64,000 nt of DNA from Polyangium mundeleinium. Lineage in GTDB: Bacteria > Myxococcota_A > Polyangia > Polyangiales > Polyangiaceae. The stretch lies in the NCBI RefSeq assembly GCF_028369105.1, contig NZ_JAQNDO010000001.1:10076501-10140500 (forward strand). The letters are read 5' to 3'. A program made the position numbers and the translations under genes. The notes under the pieces were generated by a model. It did no database searches and had not been told where the DNA came from. It worked only from the letters and a program-made list of their open reading frames with translations. How positions within the stretch are numbered: the first letter of the stretch is position 1; each line of letters begins with the position of its first letter. Below, piece after piece: positions 57,279 to 61,319 of the stretch.

Positions 57279-57729
57279 CCCACGTGCCCTCCGGCGCGCG
57301 CTCGCCGCCGCGCTCTTGCCGCTCGCGCTCACGCTGCTCGCCGCGGGTTGCCCGGGGCGCCTCGAAGACCCCGACCGTTTCCTCGACGGCGGCGCCTTCA
57401 CGTGCCCGGACATCGTGACGGAGTTCTTTCCGAAGAGCTGCGGCGGGTCGATTTGCCATGAGGGCGCCGAGGCGGCGGCGGGTCTCGATTTGCTCGCGCC
57501 GGGCGTGGTCTCGCGGCTCGTCGACAAGATGGGGCGTGATTGCCCGGGGATCCTGGTGGACCCGGTGGACCCGGAGTCGAGCCTGCTTTACGAGAAGTTG
57601 TTGCCGCTGCCGAGCTGCGGATCGCCAATGCCGATCGGAAAGCCGACGCTGACGCCGGACGAGCTCGCGTGCGTGCGGCAGTGGATTTCAGCGCAGACGC
57701 CGACGGGCGGCGACGAAGGCGAACCGTAA
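57268..57729 (+). CDS. Small lipoprotein with heme-like CX4CH motif
   Basis: A 153-residue lipoprotein (lipobox LLAAGC) with CGGSICHEGAEAAAGL, which resembles a c-type heme site but has four residues between the Cys, so heme attachment is doubtful. LLYEKLLPLPSCGSPMPIG lies further on, and ELACVRQWIS ends the domain, as in the small PSCyt1-type cytochromes linked to DUF1592 proteins. It begins inside the barrel gene, so the two are coupled. A role with the DUF1592/1552 pair on the opposite strand is possible. Confidence 0.68.
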   Translation: MPRDPRALRRALAAALLPLALTLLAAGCPGRLEDPDRFLDGGAFTCPDIVTEFFPKSCGGSICHEGAEAAAGLDLLAPGVVSRLVDKMGRDCPGILVDPVDPESSLLYEKLLPLPSCGSPMPIGKPTLTPDELACVRQWISAQTPTGGDEGEP

Positions 57730-57952
57730 GGAATCGACGGGACGTCACGCAACCGTGACAGCGGGCGTCACGCGGGAATGACACCTGTCACGGCGCCGTG
57801 TCATCGAGAGAGAGCACGCGCCGCCGATCCGCGGAGAAGGCCGCATGGGCCCCCACGCGCCGCTGGCATCGCCTTTGCGATGAGGCTTCGTCCCCCCCGA
57901 CGCGATGGAGGGTCGCGAGCGACATCCGCCCGCGAGAAAGAGTGATGAGGTC

Positions 57953-58942
57953 ATGAGGAAGAAGACCTTTGCTGTGCCCGCGTTCGCCCTCCTTACCTGC
58001 GCGCTCCCGGGCTGCGTCGTTGATTCGACGACGGAGGTCGAGGACGGCATCGCGATGCCGGGCGCGGCGCCCGAGAGCGCCCCCGTGGACACGACGATTG
58101 CGACGCTCGAGCTGTCCGGCGGGAAAGTGGTCTTCGTCGACGAGGGCGACGGCGTCGCGTTCTTCGAGGTCGGGAATGTGGATCTCACGTCGCTGCTCGA
58201 GGATCAGAAGGCCTCCGCGCTCGAGGTCTTCCTCGCGCTCGCGCCGGAAGGCACGCCCGCTCCGACGCGGCTCGTGGAGCACCACGCGGAGGTCGTCGCC
58301 CGGACCGGCACGGTGCCCGCGGTGCCGCGCAAGCTCGCGCCGATGTTCGTGATGCCCGAGGTCCAATCTCTCACGAACGACCCCCTCACGAGCGCGGGCC
58401 CGAACTGCTGGGGCTGGGGAGGATCGGGGACCTACACCGACGAGACGGGCTTGTCCGGCTTCAGCCTGTCGTCATTCCAGAGCGGCTTCAAAGACTCCTA
58501 TTCGCAGATCACCGGGAATGCCTTCCAGGTTTCGAATGGCGCCACCCTCGTGAGCTCGCCCGAGGCCAATGGGAGCTCGCCTCCCGTGTCGACCTCGATG
58601 GGCCACGAGCGCGCGATGGCGTTCTGCGCGTCGCAGGCCATCCCCAACGCGGGGAGCTGCGACGACAACCGCATCGAAGCGTTGGTCTACGTGCAGCACA
58701 CGAACGAGTCCGGGACGAACGTGTTCGCTGGCAGCGTGACCCTCTATGATTTCGGCGAGGGGGCTCGCTTCCGCTCGAACTACACGAACAGCGGCGGCGT
58801 CGCGCGCCGGTATACCGCCACGGTCACGTTTTCCGCCACCGACTACGAAAACCTGCACGGCGTCAACCCTACCTGGTGCCAGGATCAGGTCGCGGTGGTC
58901 TGGCGGTCGAAACACACGGGGGGCAGCATCATAACCCCGTGA
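57953..58942 (+). CDS. Exported lipoprotein of unknown function
   Basis: A 329-residue protein with lipobox ALPGC. The N-terminal part includes LELSGGKVVFVDEGDGVAFFEVG. After GPNCWGWGGSGTY there is a Ser/Gly/Asn-rich beta domain (YVQHTNESGTNVFAGSVTLYDF, RRYTATVTFSATDYENLHGVNP). I do not recognise a family. ATG57953 has GAGG upstream; the start at 57905 lacks a signal peptide. It is immediately followed by repeat array 2. Confidence 0.65.
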   Translation: MRKKTFAVPAFALLTCALPGCVVDSTTEVEDGIAMPGAAPESAPVDTTIATLELSGGKVVFVDEGDGVAFFEVGNVDLTSLLEDQKASALEVFLALAPEGTPAPTRLVEHHAEVVARTGTVPAVPRKLAPMFVMPEVQSLTNDPLTSAGPNCWGWGGSGTYTDETGLSGFSLSSFQSGFKDSYSQITGNAFQVSNGATLVSSPEANGSSPPVSTSMGHERAMAFCASQAIPNAGSCDDNRIEALVYVQHTNESGTNVFAGSVTLYDFGEGARFRSNYTNSGGVARRYTATVTFSATDYENLHGVNPTWCQDQVAVVWRSKHTGGSIITP

Positions 58943-59559
58943 AGCGAGCGCAGAGGGCCCTGACGGGGGCTGCCGAGGGTCGGCGGAGCGTCGAAGAGCG
59001 GTCGGCGTGGGCCGGGTGGGCTTTGGCGAGGCGCCGACGAGGGATCGGACCGGTCCGGAGGTCTTTGGCGAGGCGTCAACGGCGGGGCCGCGCGGCCCGG
59101 AGGGTCTTTGGCGAGGCGTCAACGGCGGGTCCGAGCGGTCCGGGGGGGCCTTGGCGAGGCGTCAACGGCGGATCCGAGCGTTCCGGGTTGTCCTTGGCGA
59201 GGCGCCAAGAGCGGGGCGACGCGTTCCGGGTTGTCCTTGGCGAGGCGCCAAGGGCGGGGCGACGTGGTCCGGGGGGTCTTTGACGAGGCGCCAAAGGCGG
59301 GTCGGAGCGTCCGCGGTGGTCTTGGCGAGGCGCCAACGGCGTCTCCACATGGTTCGGGGGGTCTTTGGCGAGGTGTCCGCGGAGGCTCGGACCATCCGGA
59401 AGGGTCGTGACGCCCCCGGGGTCCGCGTTTGCACAGGATCTCCAGCAGCGAAGGCCCTCCCTGCATGGCCTCGGAATCTGCGGGCGGTCGGATCTCGCCC
59501 AGCCAATGGCGGAGCCCACAGGTTTGCCCGCGGAGCGACGCCCGCGCTAGGGTGGCTCG
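58943..59559. other. 617-base region with tandem array 2
   Basis: After the lipoprotein stop, 58980-59400 is filled by the ~43-bp array described next. The remaining 59401-59559 contains no credible gene and leads into the PD-(D/E)XK-like gene. All long frames crossing the array are shadows, because the unit length is not a multiple of three. Confidence 0.6.
58980..59400. repeat. Tandem array 2, ten ~43-bp palindromic units
   Basis: Units start at 58980, 59023, 59065, 59108, 59151, 59194, 59237, 59280, 59322 and 59365 (steps 42-43 bases). Each begins with a palindrome, best copy TTGGCGAGGCGCCAA (6-base arms, 3-base loop; perfect at 59194, 59237 and 59322), followed by about 28 bases containing GGCGGG, a CGAGCGGTCCGG-like block and GTCTT/GTCC before the next unit. 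The first and last copies are degenerate. The regular spacing is close to four DNA turns, placing palindromes on the same helix face. Confidence 0.85.
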
Positions 59560-60120
59560 ATGCCGACGCTCGAGCACAACGGTCTCGTCGACATGTTCCG
59601 CGAGAACCCGGCCCTCGCGCCGCACCTCGTCGAGCTGCTCTTCCGCATGGACCTGCCGCCTTACGCCACGGTCACGGTGGTCGAGACCGCCCTCGATCAG
59701 CTCGTGCCCGTGGAGTTCCGCGCGGATCTCGTGCTCGAGCTGCGCGATGAGCACGGCGCGCTGGTGTTCGCGATCGTGCTCGAAGTCCAGCGCGACAAGG
59801 ACGCGCGCAAGAAGTACGCATGGCCGGTGTACGTCGGGGTCGTGCGGGCGCAGAAGGGGCAGAGCGAAGGAAAGGCCACGTTCCCCCCGTTCGCACAGCA
59901 GATCTTCGACCGCGGCATGCACGAGGGCGAGCTCCGAGGTGAGCTCAAGGGCATGCTCGCGGGCAAACGCGACGCCCTGCTCCGGCTCCTCGCGCGGGCA
60001 GGGATCTCGCTCGCGGAGGACGATCGCGCTCGCATCGAGGCCTGCATGGACACCGATACCCTCGATCGGTGGGTCGAGAACGTCCTGGGAGCGAAGACCA
60101 GCCGCGACGTGTTCGCGTGA
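59560..60120 (+). CDS. PD-(D/E)XK nuclease-like (Rpn/transposase-associated type), apparently internally deleted
   Basis: A 186-residue protein. VEFRADLVLELRDEHGALVFAIVLEVQRDKDARKKYAWPVYV contains the Asp and Glu-x-Gln/Lys residues of the PD-(D/E)XK fold as in Rpn-like proteins common in myxobacteria. After WPVYVGVVRA the usual middle part (about 100 residues in relatives, from memory) is missing. The sequence jumps to the charged helical segment (GMHEGELRGELKGMLAGKRDALLRLLARAGISLAEDDRARIEAC) that normally ends the family. It is therefore probably a degraded or shortened copy. It follows tandem array 2. Confidence 0.6.
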   Translation: MPTLEHNGLVDMFRENPALAPHLVELLFRMDLPPYATVTVVETALDQLVPVEFRADLVLELRDEHGALVFAIVLEVQRDKDARKKYAWPVYVGVVRAQKGQSEGKATFPPFAQQIFDRGMHEGELRGELKGMLAGKRDALLRLLARAGISLAEDDRARIEACMDTDTLDRWVENVLGAKTSRDVFA

Positions 60121-60209
60121 CGTAGCCAACCGGTCACCACGCGCCGCGCAGGCCTGGTCTCAAGGGTCTCCACACCCCACCCCGATCGGAGGTATACCGC
60201 CAGGGACGT

Positions 60210-61319
60210 ATGCCTCAGTTCGCCCTCGCGGAGCGCCTGCGTGGCCTGGAGCGGCTCTGCCTGCCGGTCTGGGTCTTCGACGTGGAGCGGGCCCGCATGG
60301 CCTGGGGGAACGCCGCCGCGCTGACGATCTGGCGCTCGCCGAGCCTCGACGAATTCCTCTCGCGGGACTACTCGGACGCCTCCACGGCGACACGTACGCG
60401 CAACGAGGGTTTCCTCCGCCGGCTCCGCGAGGGACACGACGCGCACATCGAGCACGCCTTCACGTTCTATCCACGCGGCGAGCCCTTGCACCTGCGGTGC
60501 TTCATGTCCGCCGTCGAGCTCGACGACGGGCGCTTCGCCATGCTCATCGAAGGCCACGTGCGGACCGAGGAGCAAGACCCGAAGATCCTGCGGAGCCACG
60601 AGGCCCTGCGGCACGTCTCCGCGATGGTCGCGCTCCTCTCCACCCAAGGCGCCGTGCTCGTGATGAACCCAGCCGCCGAGAGCGCCTTCGGCGGGTCGAG
60701 CACGCCATCGGCCTGGTTCGAGGACGCAGGCGTGGTGGCGCGGATCCTGAAGGTCGCCGAGACCCTGGAGGTGCTCGACGAGGAGCTCGTCGCGTTGACG
60801 AACGAGGGGCCGCGCTGGCACGCCGTGGAGGCGCGTCGGACGAGTGATCCGGTCACCGGGAAGCACGCGATCGTCGTGCACCAGGTGGACGTGACGGAGC
60901 GGCGGGAGCGCGAGGCCCTGATCGAGGCGCAGCAGCGCGAAATCCTGGAGCTCTCGGCGCCGCTGCTCGACGTGGCCGAAGGGGTGGTCGCGGTGCCGAT
61001 CGTCGCGGCCTTGACCGAGGCGCGGTGCGCAGAGCTCGAACGGCGGCTCCTGCCCGGCATGATGGAGCGCGGCGCGCAGGTGGTCGTGTTTGATCTGACG
61101 GGCGCGACGGCGACGGAGGGCGAGGGGCTCTCGCTGCTCGTGCGCCTGATCAGCGCCGTGCGGCTGCTCGGCGCGCGGCCGATGGTGACGGGCGTGCGGT
61201 CGACGCTGGCGAGGGAGCTCGTGCAGAGCGGCGCGGACCTCGCAGGCGCGGCGGTGATGCGGTCGCTGCGGGAAGCGCTCGCGGCGGCACGCGGGGCGCA
61301 GCGGCCGCTCCGGCGCTGA
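60210..61319 (+). CDS. PAS-STAS regulator, RsbR-like (second copy)
   Basis: A 369-residue soluble protein. Two PAS-like regions (about 10-120, starting LPVWVFDVERARMAWGNAAA, and 130-235, NPAAESAFGG) lead through a coiled coil (REREALIEAQQREILELSAP) to a STAS domain (about 255-360; VVFDLTGATATEGEGLSLLVRLISAVRLLGARPMVTGVRSTLARELV). Compared with RsbR, both phosphoacceptor positions seem lost: Thr171 equivalent is Gly and Thr205 equivalent is Glu. It precedes the kinase at 61525 by about 200 bases. Confidence 0.83.
   Translation: MPQFALAERLRGLERLCLPVWVFDVERARMAWGNAAALTIWRSPSLDEFLSRDYSDASTATRTRNEGFLRRLREGHDAHIEHAFTFYPRGEPLHLRCFMSAVELDDGRFAMLIEGHVRTEEQDPKILRSHEALRHVSAMVALLSTQGAVLVMNPAAESAFGGSSTPSAWFEDAGVVARILKVAETLEVLDEELVALTNEGPRWHAVEARRTSDPVTGKHAIVVHQVDVTERREREALIEAQQREILELSAPLLDVAEGVVAVPIVAALTEARCAELERRLLPGMMERGAQVVVFDLTGATATEGEGLSLLVRLISAVRLLGARPMVTGVRSTLARELVQSGADLAGAAVMRSLREALAAARGAQRPLRR

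Follow-up and report, generated by a model that had tools for sequence, protein, structure and literature searches.

Direct repeats that are spaced near whole turns of the helix and lie beside the gene for a binding protein are found in the iteron arrays of plasmid origins and in par centromeres. REP sequences occur as inverted doublets that form a hairpin unit, the REPIN, and tandem clusters of REPINs exist (PMC3116915). In the CptIN and ToxIN loci of type III toxin-antitoxin systems the repeat RNA measures 45 nt or 36 bases, and the repeats vary greatly in sequence and length among families (PMC4627078). Here we have analysed a stretch of 64,000 nucleotides from Polyangium mundeleinium (hereafter the window) that holds an array of palindromic repeats, together with related arrays and the family of ~261-aa proteins whose genes accompany some of them.

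REP sequences and their RAYT partners resemble the present arrays in that palindromes lie by a cognate gene, several flavours occur per genome and many extragenic copies have no gene. REPs are inverted doublets, however, whereas the units here form direct arrays, usually of 5-10 units at a fixed 41-44-bp step; moreover, the partner protein has no Y1/HUH transposase match and the step is conserved without the sequence. Type III systems (ToxIN, CptIN and TenpIN) share tandem repeats of similar length upstream of one gene, with sequences that vary between loci, but here the arrays of one genome group lie 3' of the gene, dozens of arrays have no gene, and there is no toxin match. REP/RAYT is nearest in logic and type III toxin-antitoxin nearest in layout, and each departs from the present arrays in a defining feature that was tested. 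Unlike iterons and par centromeres, the arrays are chromosomal, are many per genome and have a unit about twice as long, and no replication or partition gene was recognised beside those examined. The superfamily of the partner gene, DUF6261 (PF19775), is a family of unknown function. To our knowledge no known family or system combines the gene and array features seen here; in the open-access literature we found no description of Polyangium palindromic or 43-bp arrays or of an association between DUF6261 and arrays, which is weak evidence, and nothing of relevance on myxobacterial direct repeats or on 41-bp direct repeats of Porphyromonas gingivalis.

The window array and its relatives in Polyangium

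In the unit-by-unit layout the window array has ten palindrome units between 58980 and 59379 (Table 1), which start at 58980, 59023, 59065, 59108, 59151, 59194, 59237, 59280, 59322 and 59365, with successive steps of 43, 42, 43, 43, 43, 43, 43, 42 and 43 (mean 42.8). TRF detected it independently at 59000-59373 (period 43, 8.7 copies, score 347), and the coordinates, count and spacing given in the preliminary description of this DNA were right. That description had also taken the repeat to be non-coding, and a coding repeat is ruled out, as the steps are not multiples of three and the open frames differ among four orthologues; some frames do stay open across these orthologues, as is common in GC-rich DNA. 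Like CRISPR loci the array consists of regularly spaced palindromic repeats, but its 27-28-bp spacers are alike, as had been noted (identity 0.70 between adjacent units against 0.49 between arrays), which rules out CRISPR; a period-61 CRISPR-like array at another locus (L232) looks quite different. The palindromes are 0.88 identical between adjacent units and 0.69 between arrays. The 16-mer CTTGGCGAGGCGCCAA has 36 matches with up to two mismatches in the 13.25 Mb genome, compared with 16 for the reversed control, and the nine places with no or one mismatch all lie inside arrays. Rfam 15 gave no match at E<=0.5 between 57700 and 60400.

Table 1. The window array, selected units and the adjoining genes, in window positions.
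Feature	Position	Strand	Remarks
345-aa lipoprotein-like gene	57905..58942	+	left of array; 329 aa by our own gene predictor; no Pfam match
Palindrome array, ten units	58980..59407	+	15-bp palindrome (consensus TTGGCGAGGCGCCAA) plus 27-28-bp spacer; steps 42-43
Unit 1	58980..58994	+	degenerate palindrome TCGGCGGAGCGTCGA; 0.95 identical to orthologous unit 1 of the P. fumosum array
Unit 6	59194..59208	+	perfect palindrome TTGGCGAGGCGCCAA
Unit 7	59237..59251	+	perfect palindrome
Unit 9	59322..59336	+	perfect palindrome
Unit 10	59365..59379	+	degenerate; right end of window array
186-aa gene	59560..60120	+	right of array; no Pfam match
PAS/STAS-domain gene	60210..61319	+	conserved right border of locus in six species

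From six Polyangium genomes 65 arrays of 2 to 10 units were resolved, a list that is a lower bound for G001-G005 and from which L111 and L141, with one weak model match each and no array, were left out. Eight or nine units are present in 42 of the 65; small arrays are those of L136 (two units), L148 and L161 (three each) and L101 (four). The units of an array are direct tandem repeats in one orientation at 43 bp: the step is 43 in 417 of 445 cases, 42 in 20 and 44 in eight, and steps of 41 and 45, which the layout permitted at a penalty, were never chosen. All but one of the arrays (64/65) lie outside genes as predicted with our own codon model, and 53 have no ~261-aa gene beside them, including L150, which ends at a contig end and may have had one. 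The neighbouring genes of gene-less arrays are arranged in tandem at 20 loci, divergently at 16 and convergently at 13, which is about chance.

The array classes include TTGGCGnnnCGCCAA and WTGGGGnnnCCCCAW, and some cores are non-palindromic (L106, L139 and L140; for example TTGGCGCAGGTGCAA). The palindromic unit first described thus holds for the window array but not across the family, in which, besides these three loci, the unit consensus of gene-linked arrays carries an inverted repeat beyond shuffles (p<0.05) in only 10 of 33. What is invariant in the array family is the step, not the palindrome. GCTCCAAAACGGAGC hairpins at the left array edge persist at many gene-less arrays, and two or three GCTCCAAAACGGAGC-like hairpins at ~22-bp steps are fused to the first palindrome at L031, L101, L151, L154, L163 and others.

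A sequence-only model built from 29 units found arrays in all six Polyangium genomes and, among 33 other relatives, gave one marginal match (G031, E 4.7e-4). A second model, of the paired palindrome, matched 6 of 183 genomes of the order Polyangiales, all six being Polyangium, and none of the other 177 at E<=1e-5; an exact two-palindrome pattern found 10 stretches in 84,980 species genomes (own genome excluded), all of them in Polyangium. The preliminary description had proposed such a search of the genome and of the Polyangiales and had held that a unit occurring only here would count against it; the unit occurs instead in six genomes, and the window locus in four species.

The arrays are spread unevenly round the chromosome of the window's genome and lie on both strands. 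A partition site had been among the readings first offered, but a role in partition or at the origin is not indicated, the arrays being dispersed and the parS-like sites clustered, four of the five at 12.90 Mb. These four sites (CGTTTCACGTGAAACA) lie within 6 kb (G000:C1:12901664-12907540), with the fifth, weaker one at 5.26 Mb, and the cluster suggests that the origin of G000 is near 12.9 Mb.

Turnover of arrays and of the genes at their edges

The window locus is occupied in four Polyangium species and empty in two. In G001 the flanks join within 4 bp, and the 345-aa gene, the array and the 186-aa gene are all missing; in G005 the array and the 186-aa gene are both missing, leaving a 51-bp gap, and the 345-aa gene is retained. 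The latter was not found between the flanks in L113 and L125 either, and in L122 (P. fumosum) it is present in two tandem copies. The 186-aa gene looks like an internally shortened form of a 317-aa gene in L113, and in L122 only a 152-aa piece of the 317-aa/186-aa gene is left; judged by eye, the product of the 186-aa gene bears a likeness to Rpn/PD-(D/E)XK-type proteins.

Flank comparison with the arrays masked identified ten orthologous array loci at which both flanks are colinear. Arrays stay in place at such loci in up to six species and keep their orientation, as judged by the G-rich spacer strand, and yet the palindrome class at the same site differs between species at loci C, D, F and H. 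Locus D has 8 units in each of five species and locus A has 9 in each of five, but the number ranges over 5-9 at C, 7-10 at E and 5-9 at F. Compared with its P. fumosum counterpart, the window array matches unit by unit over units 1-4 (0.90-0.95) but not over units 5-10 (0.40-0.74), and within arrays the likeness of units decays with distance, from 0.77 for adjacent units to 0.53 for units eight apart.

The covariation score of the palindromes is 0.150 compared with 0.096 +- 0.009 after shuffling, a value that none of 500 shuffles reached, and falls to 0.02-0.08 when the palindrome is slid; an example is the paired change from GGCG/CGCC to GGGG/CCCC. Covariation comes mainly from one base pair (C-G to G-C), with few independent events, and for this reason two of the five pairing measures are not above shuffles (both-side changed pairs, 5 vs 5.8; further pair types, 16 vs 14.9). 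Palindrome mismatches are of the G-U type in 103 cases and of the C-A type in 54 (29 arrays vs 15, with 16 equal, orthologues not being independent), an excess that would be in line with a hairpin formed by RNA from one strand and with an RNA role for the arrays.

Conserved positions, and a unit number that is constant at D and A while the letters turn over, would be in keeping with sites retained to serve the host in chromosome organisation or regulation, the gene acting as a regulator of its own array. We consider this quite improbable, as unit number varies at C, E and F, occurrence is patchy (6/183 order genomes by the array model and 19/188 phylum genomes by DUF6261), the locus is absent in two sister species, and there is no strand or neighbour rule.

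Whole genes are gained and lost at array edges. Indels of at least 300 bp begin within 600 bp of the array in 0.40 of flank comparisons (mean over 10 loci) and number 0.01-0.05 in each further 600-bp bin, an edge effect that is partly expected and inflated because the stretch next to an array is intergenic in every case and comparisons made at one locus depend on each other; an edge indel is present at 9 of the 10 loci. Some pairs of arrays have only one flank in common, right up to the array (L101/L156 from 6 bp, L136/L154 from 46-87 bp). Genes that come and go beside arrays include SduA (E 3e-162), an AAA/DUF4276 pair that matches HEC-01 and the gene for a ThsA-like SIR2 protein (PADLOC), which are given as a list and not as an enrichment test; PADLOC had no match for the other four of the eight proteins scanned, among them the ~261-aa protein and the 345-aa protein of the window. 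Gene insertion between two units was considered and set aside, no array remnants being seen by eye at seven far junctions. A raw list, made without shuffle control, holds 351 isolated unit-like matches in 350 kb. At L135, L149 and L153 (G000, G002 and G003), neighbouring sites in one region, the arrays are shifted by one gene; in L135 and L153 the array has a 398-aa gene on its right, and in L149 this gene lies left of the gene-linked array.

The partner gene and the DUF6261 superfamily

The left neighbour of twelve arrays is a paralogous ~261-aa gene that reads away from the array and so has it on its 5' side. A profile search of 317 genomes of the class gave 40 matches to this family in 11 genomes, of which 34 were used, one having its 5' side cut by a contig end and five being fragments or doubtful. 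Taking the strongest period among 25-74 bp within 800 bp, a 42/43-bp array is present on the 5' side in 33 of the 34 copies, from five genera (43 in 28, 42 in 5); the single copy without one, scored over the same 800 bp, is L201. On the 3' side there was an array in none of 33. Gene-linked arrays have several unrelated repeat sequences at the same step, and two gene copies from another genus have 43-bp arrays of unrelated letters. Three copies of the gene were found in the window's genome, of which the two that the array models overlooked also carry 43-bp arrays, one of them degenerate. Its gene-less arrays of types 2, 3 and 4 have no gene-linked array of the same type among these three copies; a gene-linked partner of type 2 is present in each of the other five Polyangium species. 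At many loci GCTCCAAAACGGAGC hairpins lie between the array and the gene.

Eight members of the partner protein family had no transposase or toxin match in Pfam at E<=1, PDB held no relative at E<=1, PHROG had no match, and no ToxN/CptN/TenpN-type endoribonuclease was matched in Pfam, NCBIfam, PADLOC or PDB; the invariant columns of the family contain no HUH. A single-sequence structure model had a pLDDT of 41 and was unusable; on this low-confidence model the ~260-aa protein is probably helical. Two faecal 'phage' contigs of unconfirmed identity carry relatives, but a phage origin was rejected, as none of four viral-contig scans confirmed a relative and no PHROG was matched.

Eight copies of the gene with its upstream region and array, no two of which have both flanks in common, are 70-88% alike. 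The likeness begins near the stop codon and runs through the upstream region, and similarity ends between -7 and +39 bp from the stop codon in 26 of the 27 pairs reported; an end at the stop codon is alone no proof of a mobile element, because coding DNA is conserved for longer than flanks. L149 and L158 have common sequence again 2 kb further left, and the ~261-aa matches include fragments and one frame with a stop. Recurrence between different flanks, the many gene-less copies with a common left edge, presence or absence at orthologous sites and the broken gene copies would suit a new kind of transposase or helper, with arrays as its ends or targets and with a gene-bearing element giving gene-less derivatives in the manner of REP/RAYT. 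This seems unlikely to us. The apparent left end may only reflect coding conservation and is weak evidence of an element end, the likeness of L149 and L158 resumes beyond it, no transposase model or PDB entry is matched, and orthologous arrays are fixed in up to six species. Since G005 lacks the array and an adjoining unrelated gene together, the empty sites do not outline an element, and terminal repeats and target duplications were sought by eye only.

The Pfam model of DUF6261 (PF19775) matched one of eight members of the ~261-aa family, with a best E of 0.14, below the gathering cut-off of 27 bits. Aligned by hhalign with ten myxococcotal DUF6261 proteins, nine of them over that cut-off, the family gave a probability of 95.9 (E 5.7e-9, 90 columns). 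On this profile evidence it is a distant relative of DUF6261 and not a filed member.

At E<=0.01, 19 of the 188 Myxococcota genomes searched carry DUF6261 itself, frequently more than once, and 43 of the 65 matches listed were examined for arrays. A 42-44-bp array lies on at least one side in 25 of the 43 (7 at 5', 18 at 3'), called at an autocorrelation of >=0.49, a threshold that was set after a first look at the data and at which L261 and L262 stand exactly. Of 505 control windows, taken from Polyangium loci and one further set of 20 loci only, six reach it, each with a period of 42; periods of 43 and 44 do not occur among them. The remaining 18 genes have no 42-44-bp array in the stretch read, one side being unreadable in five of them. 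In genomes G322, G436, G335 and G327 (two complete, two draft) arrays lie 3' of the DUF6261 gene in 14 of 20 cases and 5' in none. Other repeats occur around some of these genes: at L232 and L251 (G322) a period-61 CRISPR-like array (repeat GGACTATCCCCGCGTCTGCGGGGGAACC) flanks the 5' side of a gene that has a 42-bp array on its opposite side, at L266 (G335) dispersed 39- and 50-bp repeats surround a 43-bp array, on both sides of the gene, and at L248 (G016) the gene is followed by an array of period 32/64, not 43.

An RNA partner could also be read from the arrays that precede 33 of the 34 gene copies in Polyangiaceae, from the GCTCCAAAACGGAGC hairpins between array and gene and from the excess of G-U over C-A mismatches. 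In such a system, akin to type III toxin-antitoxin loci, the array transcript would be cut to folded RNAs of ~43 nt that restrain the DUF6261-like protein, and gene-less arrays would be free sources of RNA; in CptIN and ToxIN, tandem repeats likewise precede the toxin gene (PMC4627078). We judge it improbable, given the arrays 3' of the gene in the four genomes just named, the gene-less arrays without an orientation rule (20 tandem, 16 divergent, 13 convergent), the absence of an Rfam match in window positions 57700-60400 and of a Pfam toxin match, and a fixed length across unrelated sequences that would be unexpected of an RNA unit.

In addition to the 77 genes read in Myxococcota (34 plus 43), three relatives were read from Prevotella and faecal contigs. 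In Prevotella nigrescens a DUF6261-annotated gene is accompanied by five palindromes TGCCGAnnnTCGGCA at 41-bp steps, two of which carry one mismatch; the annotated start of the gene falls inside the array, and we infer that a later ATG just 3' of the array is the true start. The same pattern found no further TGCCGAnnnTCGGCA array on that replicon. A 120-bp tandem repeat of 3.3 copies (L271:3195-3590) lies in the ORF just before the 41-bp array. Of the faecal contigs, L273 has a weak 41-42-bp array 5' of the relative, and that of L272 is not convincing. Gene and array are paired in Polyangiaceae, at many of the other Myxococcota genes examined and in Prevotella. Neutral minisatellites, in which slippage would give the fall in unit likeness from adjacent to distant units, are extremely unlikely to account for the arrays: the same step stands beside one gene family in two phyla, unit number is narrow (eight or nine in 42/65 arrays) and changes are paired. 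As a full account they are already refuted by the gene association.

A proposed model for gene-array elements

The step is kept while the letters change, the gene, its upstream region and the array recur together at different sites, and gene-less arrays are many. Steps of 41-44 bp come to about four helical turns, so that the units face one side of the helix, and a DNA-binding partner is suggested because one protein family is found with arrays on either side of its gene, the step is kept without the sequence and gene-less copies lie in trans. Our best reading, which we hold at even strength for and against, is that the protein would bind four-turn sites and that gene-plus-array modules gave rise to gene-less arrays. 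Of the four readings offered in the preliminary description, a protein-binding array and a REP-like family come closest, given a four-turn step with unrelated sequences beside one gene family and dispersed gene-less copies.

According to the four-turn binding model, the full element would comprise the gene for a ~260-aa DUF6261-related protein and an adjoining array, mostly of 5-10 units at a step of 41-44 bp. Dimers of the partner protein would each bind one unit, and at a step near four turns the bound dimers would lie on one face and form one nucleoprotein patch. A dimer seated on a dyad may not be general, since among 33 gene-linked arrays the palindrome is significant in only 10. Also counting against the model are the G-U excess, the two pairing measures that are not above shuffles, the gene-less types of the window's genome that lack a gene-linked array of their kind, and the 18 DUF6261 genes at which no such array was seen. 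As the home site, the array next to the gene would serve autoregulation or maintenance of the element, and arrays without a gene would offer additional binding places to that protein or to a sister protein. Units would be kept alike by internal duplication, which would allow letters to drift at constant length and phase. Insertion and loss of genes at the edges, some defence genes among them, would be promoted either by the patch or by arrays recombining with one another. On this model, held at even odds, the window array, which has no partner gene beside it and whose best gene-linked match is 0.74, would be a gene-less copy of the two-part element, which would explain why the preliminary description could not see the partner gene.

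More tentatively, and as something we think possible rather than probable, DUF6261-superfamily proteins and ~43-bp arrays might together be a self-propagating DNA-binding system of at least two phyla, in which the protein reads helical phase over letters, each copy has its own co-evolving repeat code, and the arrays that it seeds create points of gene exchange, including that of defence genes (Shedu SduA, the HEC-01-like pair and the ThsA-like SIR2). A step that is conserved between phyla when the letters are not is unusual and points to a protein and a DNA site whose partnership may be governed by the phase of the helix. For DUF6261, a protein family of undescribed function, the pairing offers a first starting point; it also accounts for a set of tandem repeats found in the large genomes of myxobacteria, in which the arrays mark places on the chromosome where accessory genes enter and leave.
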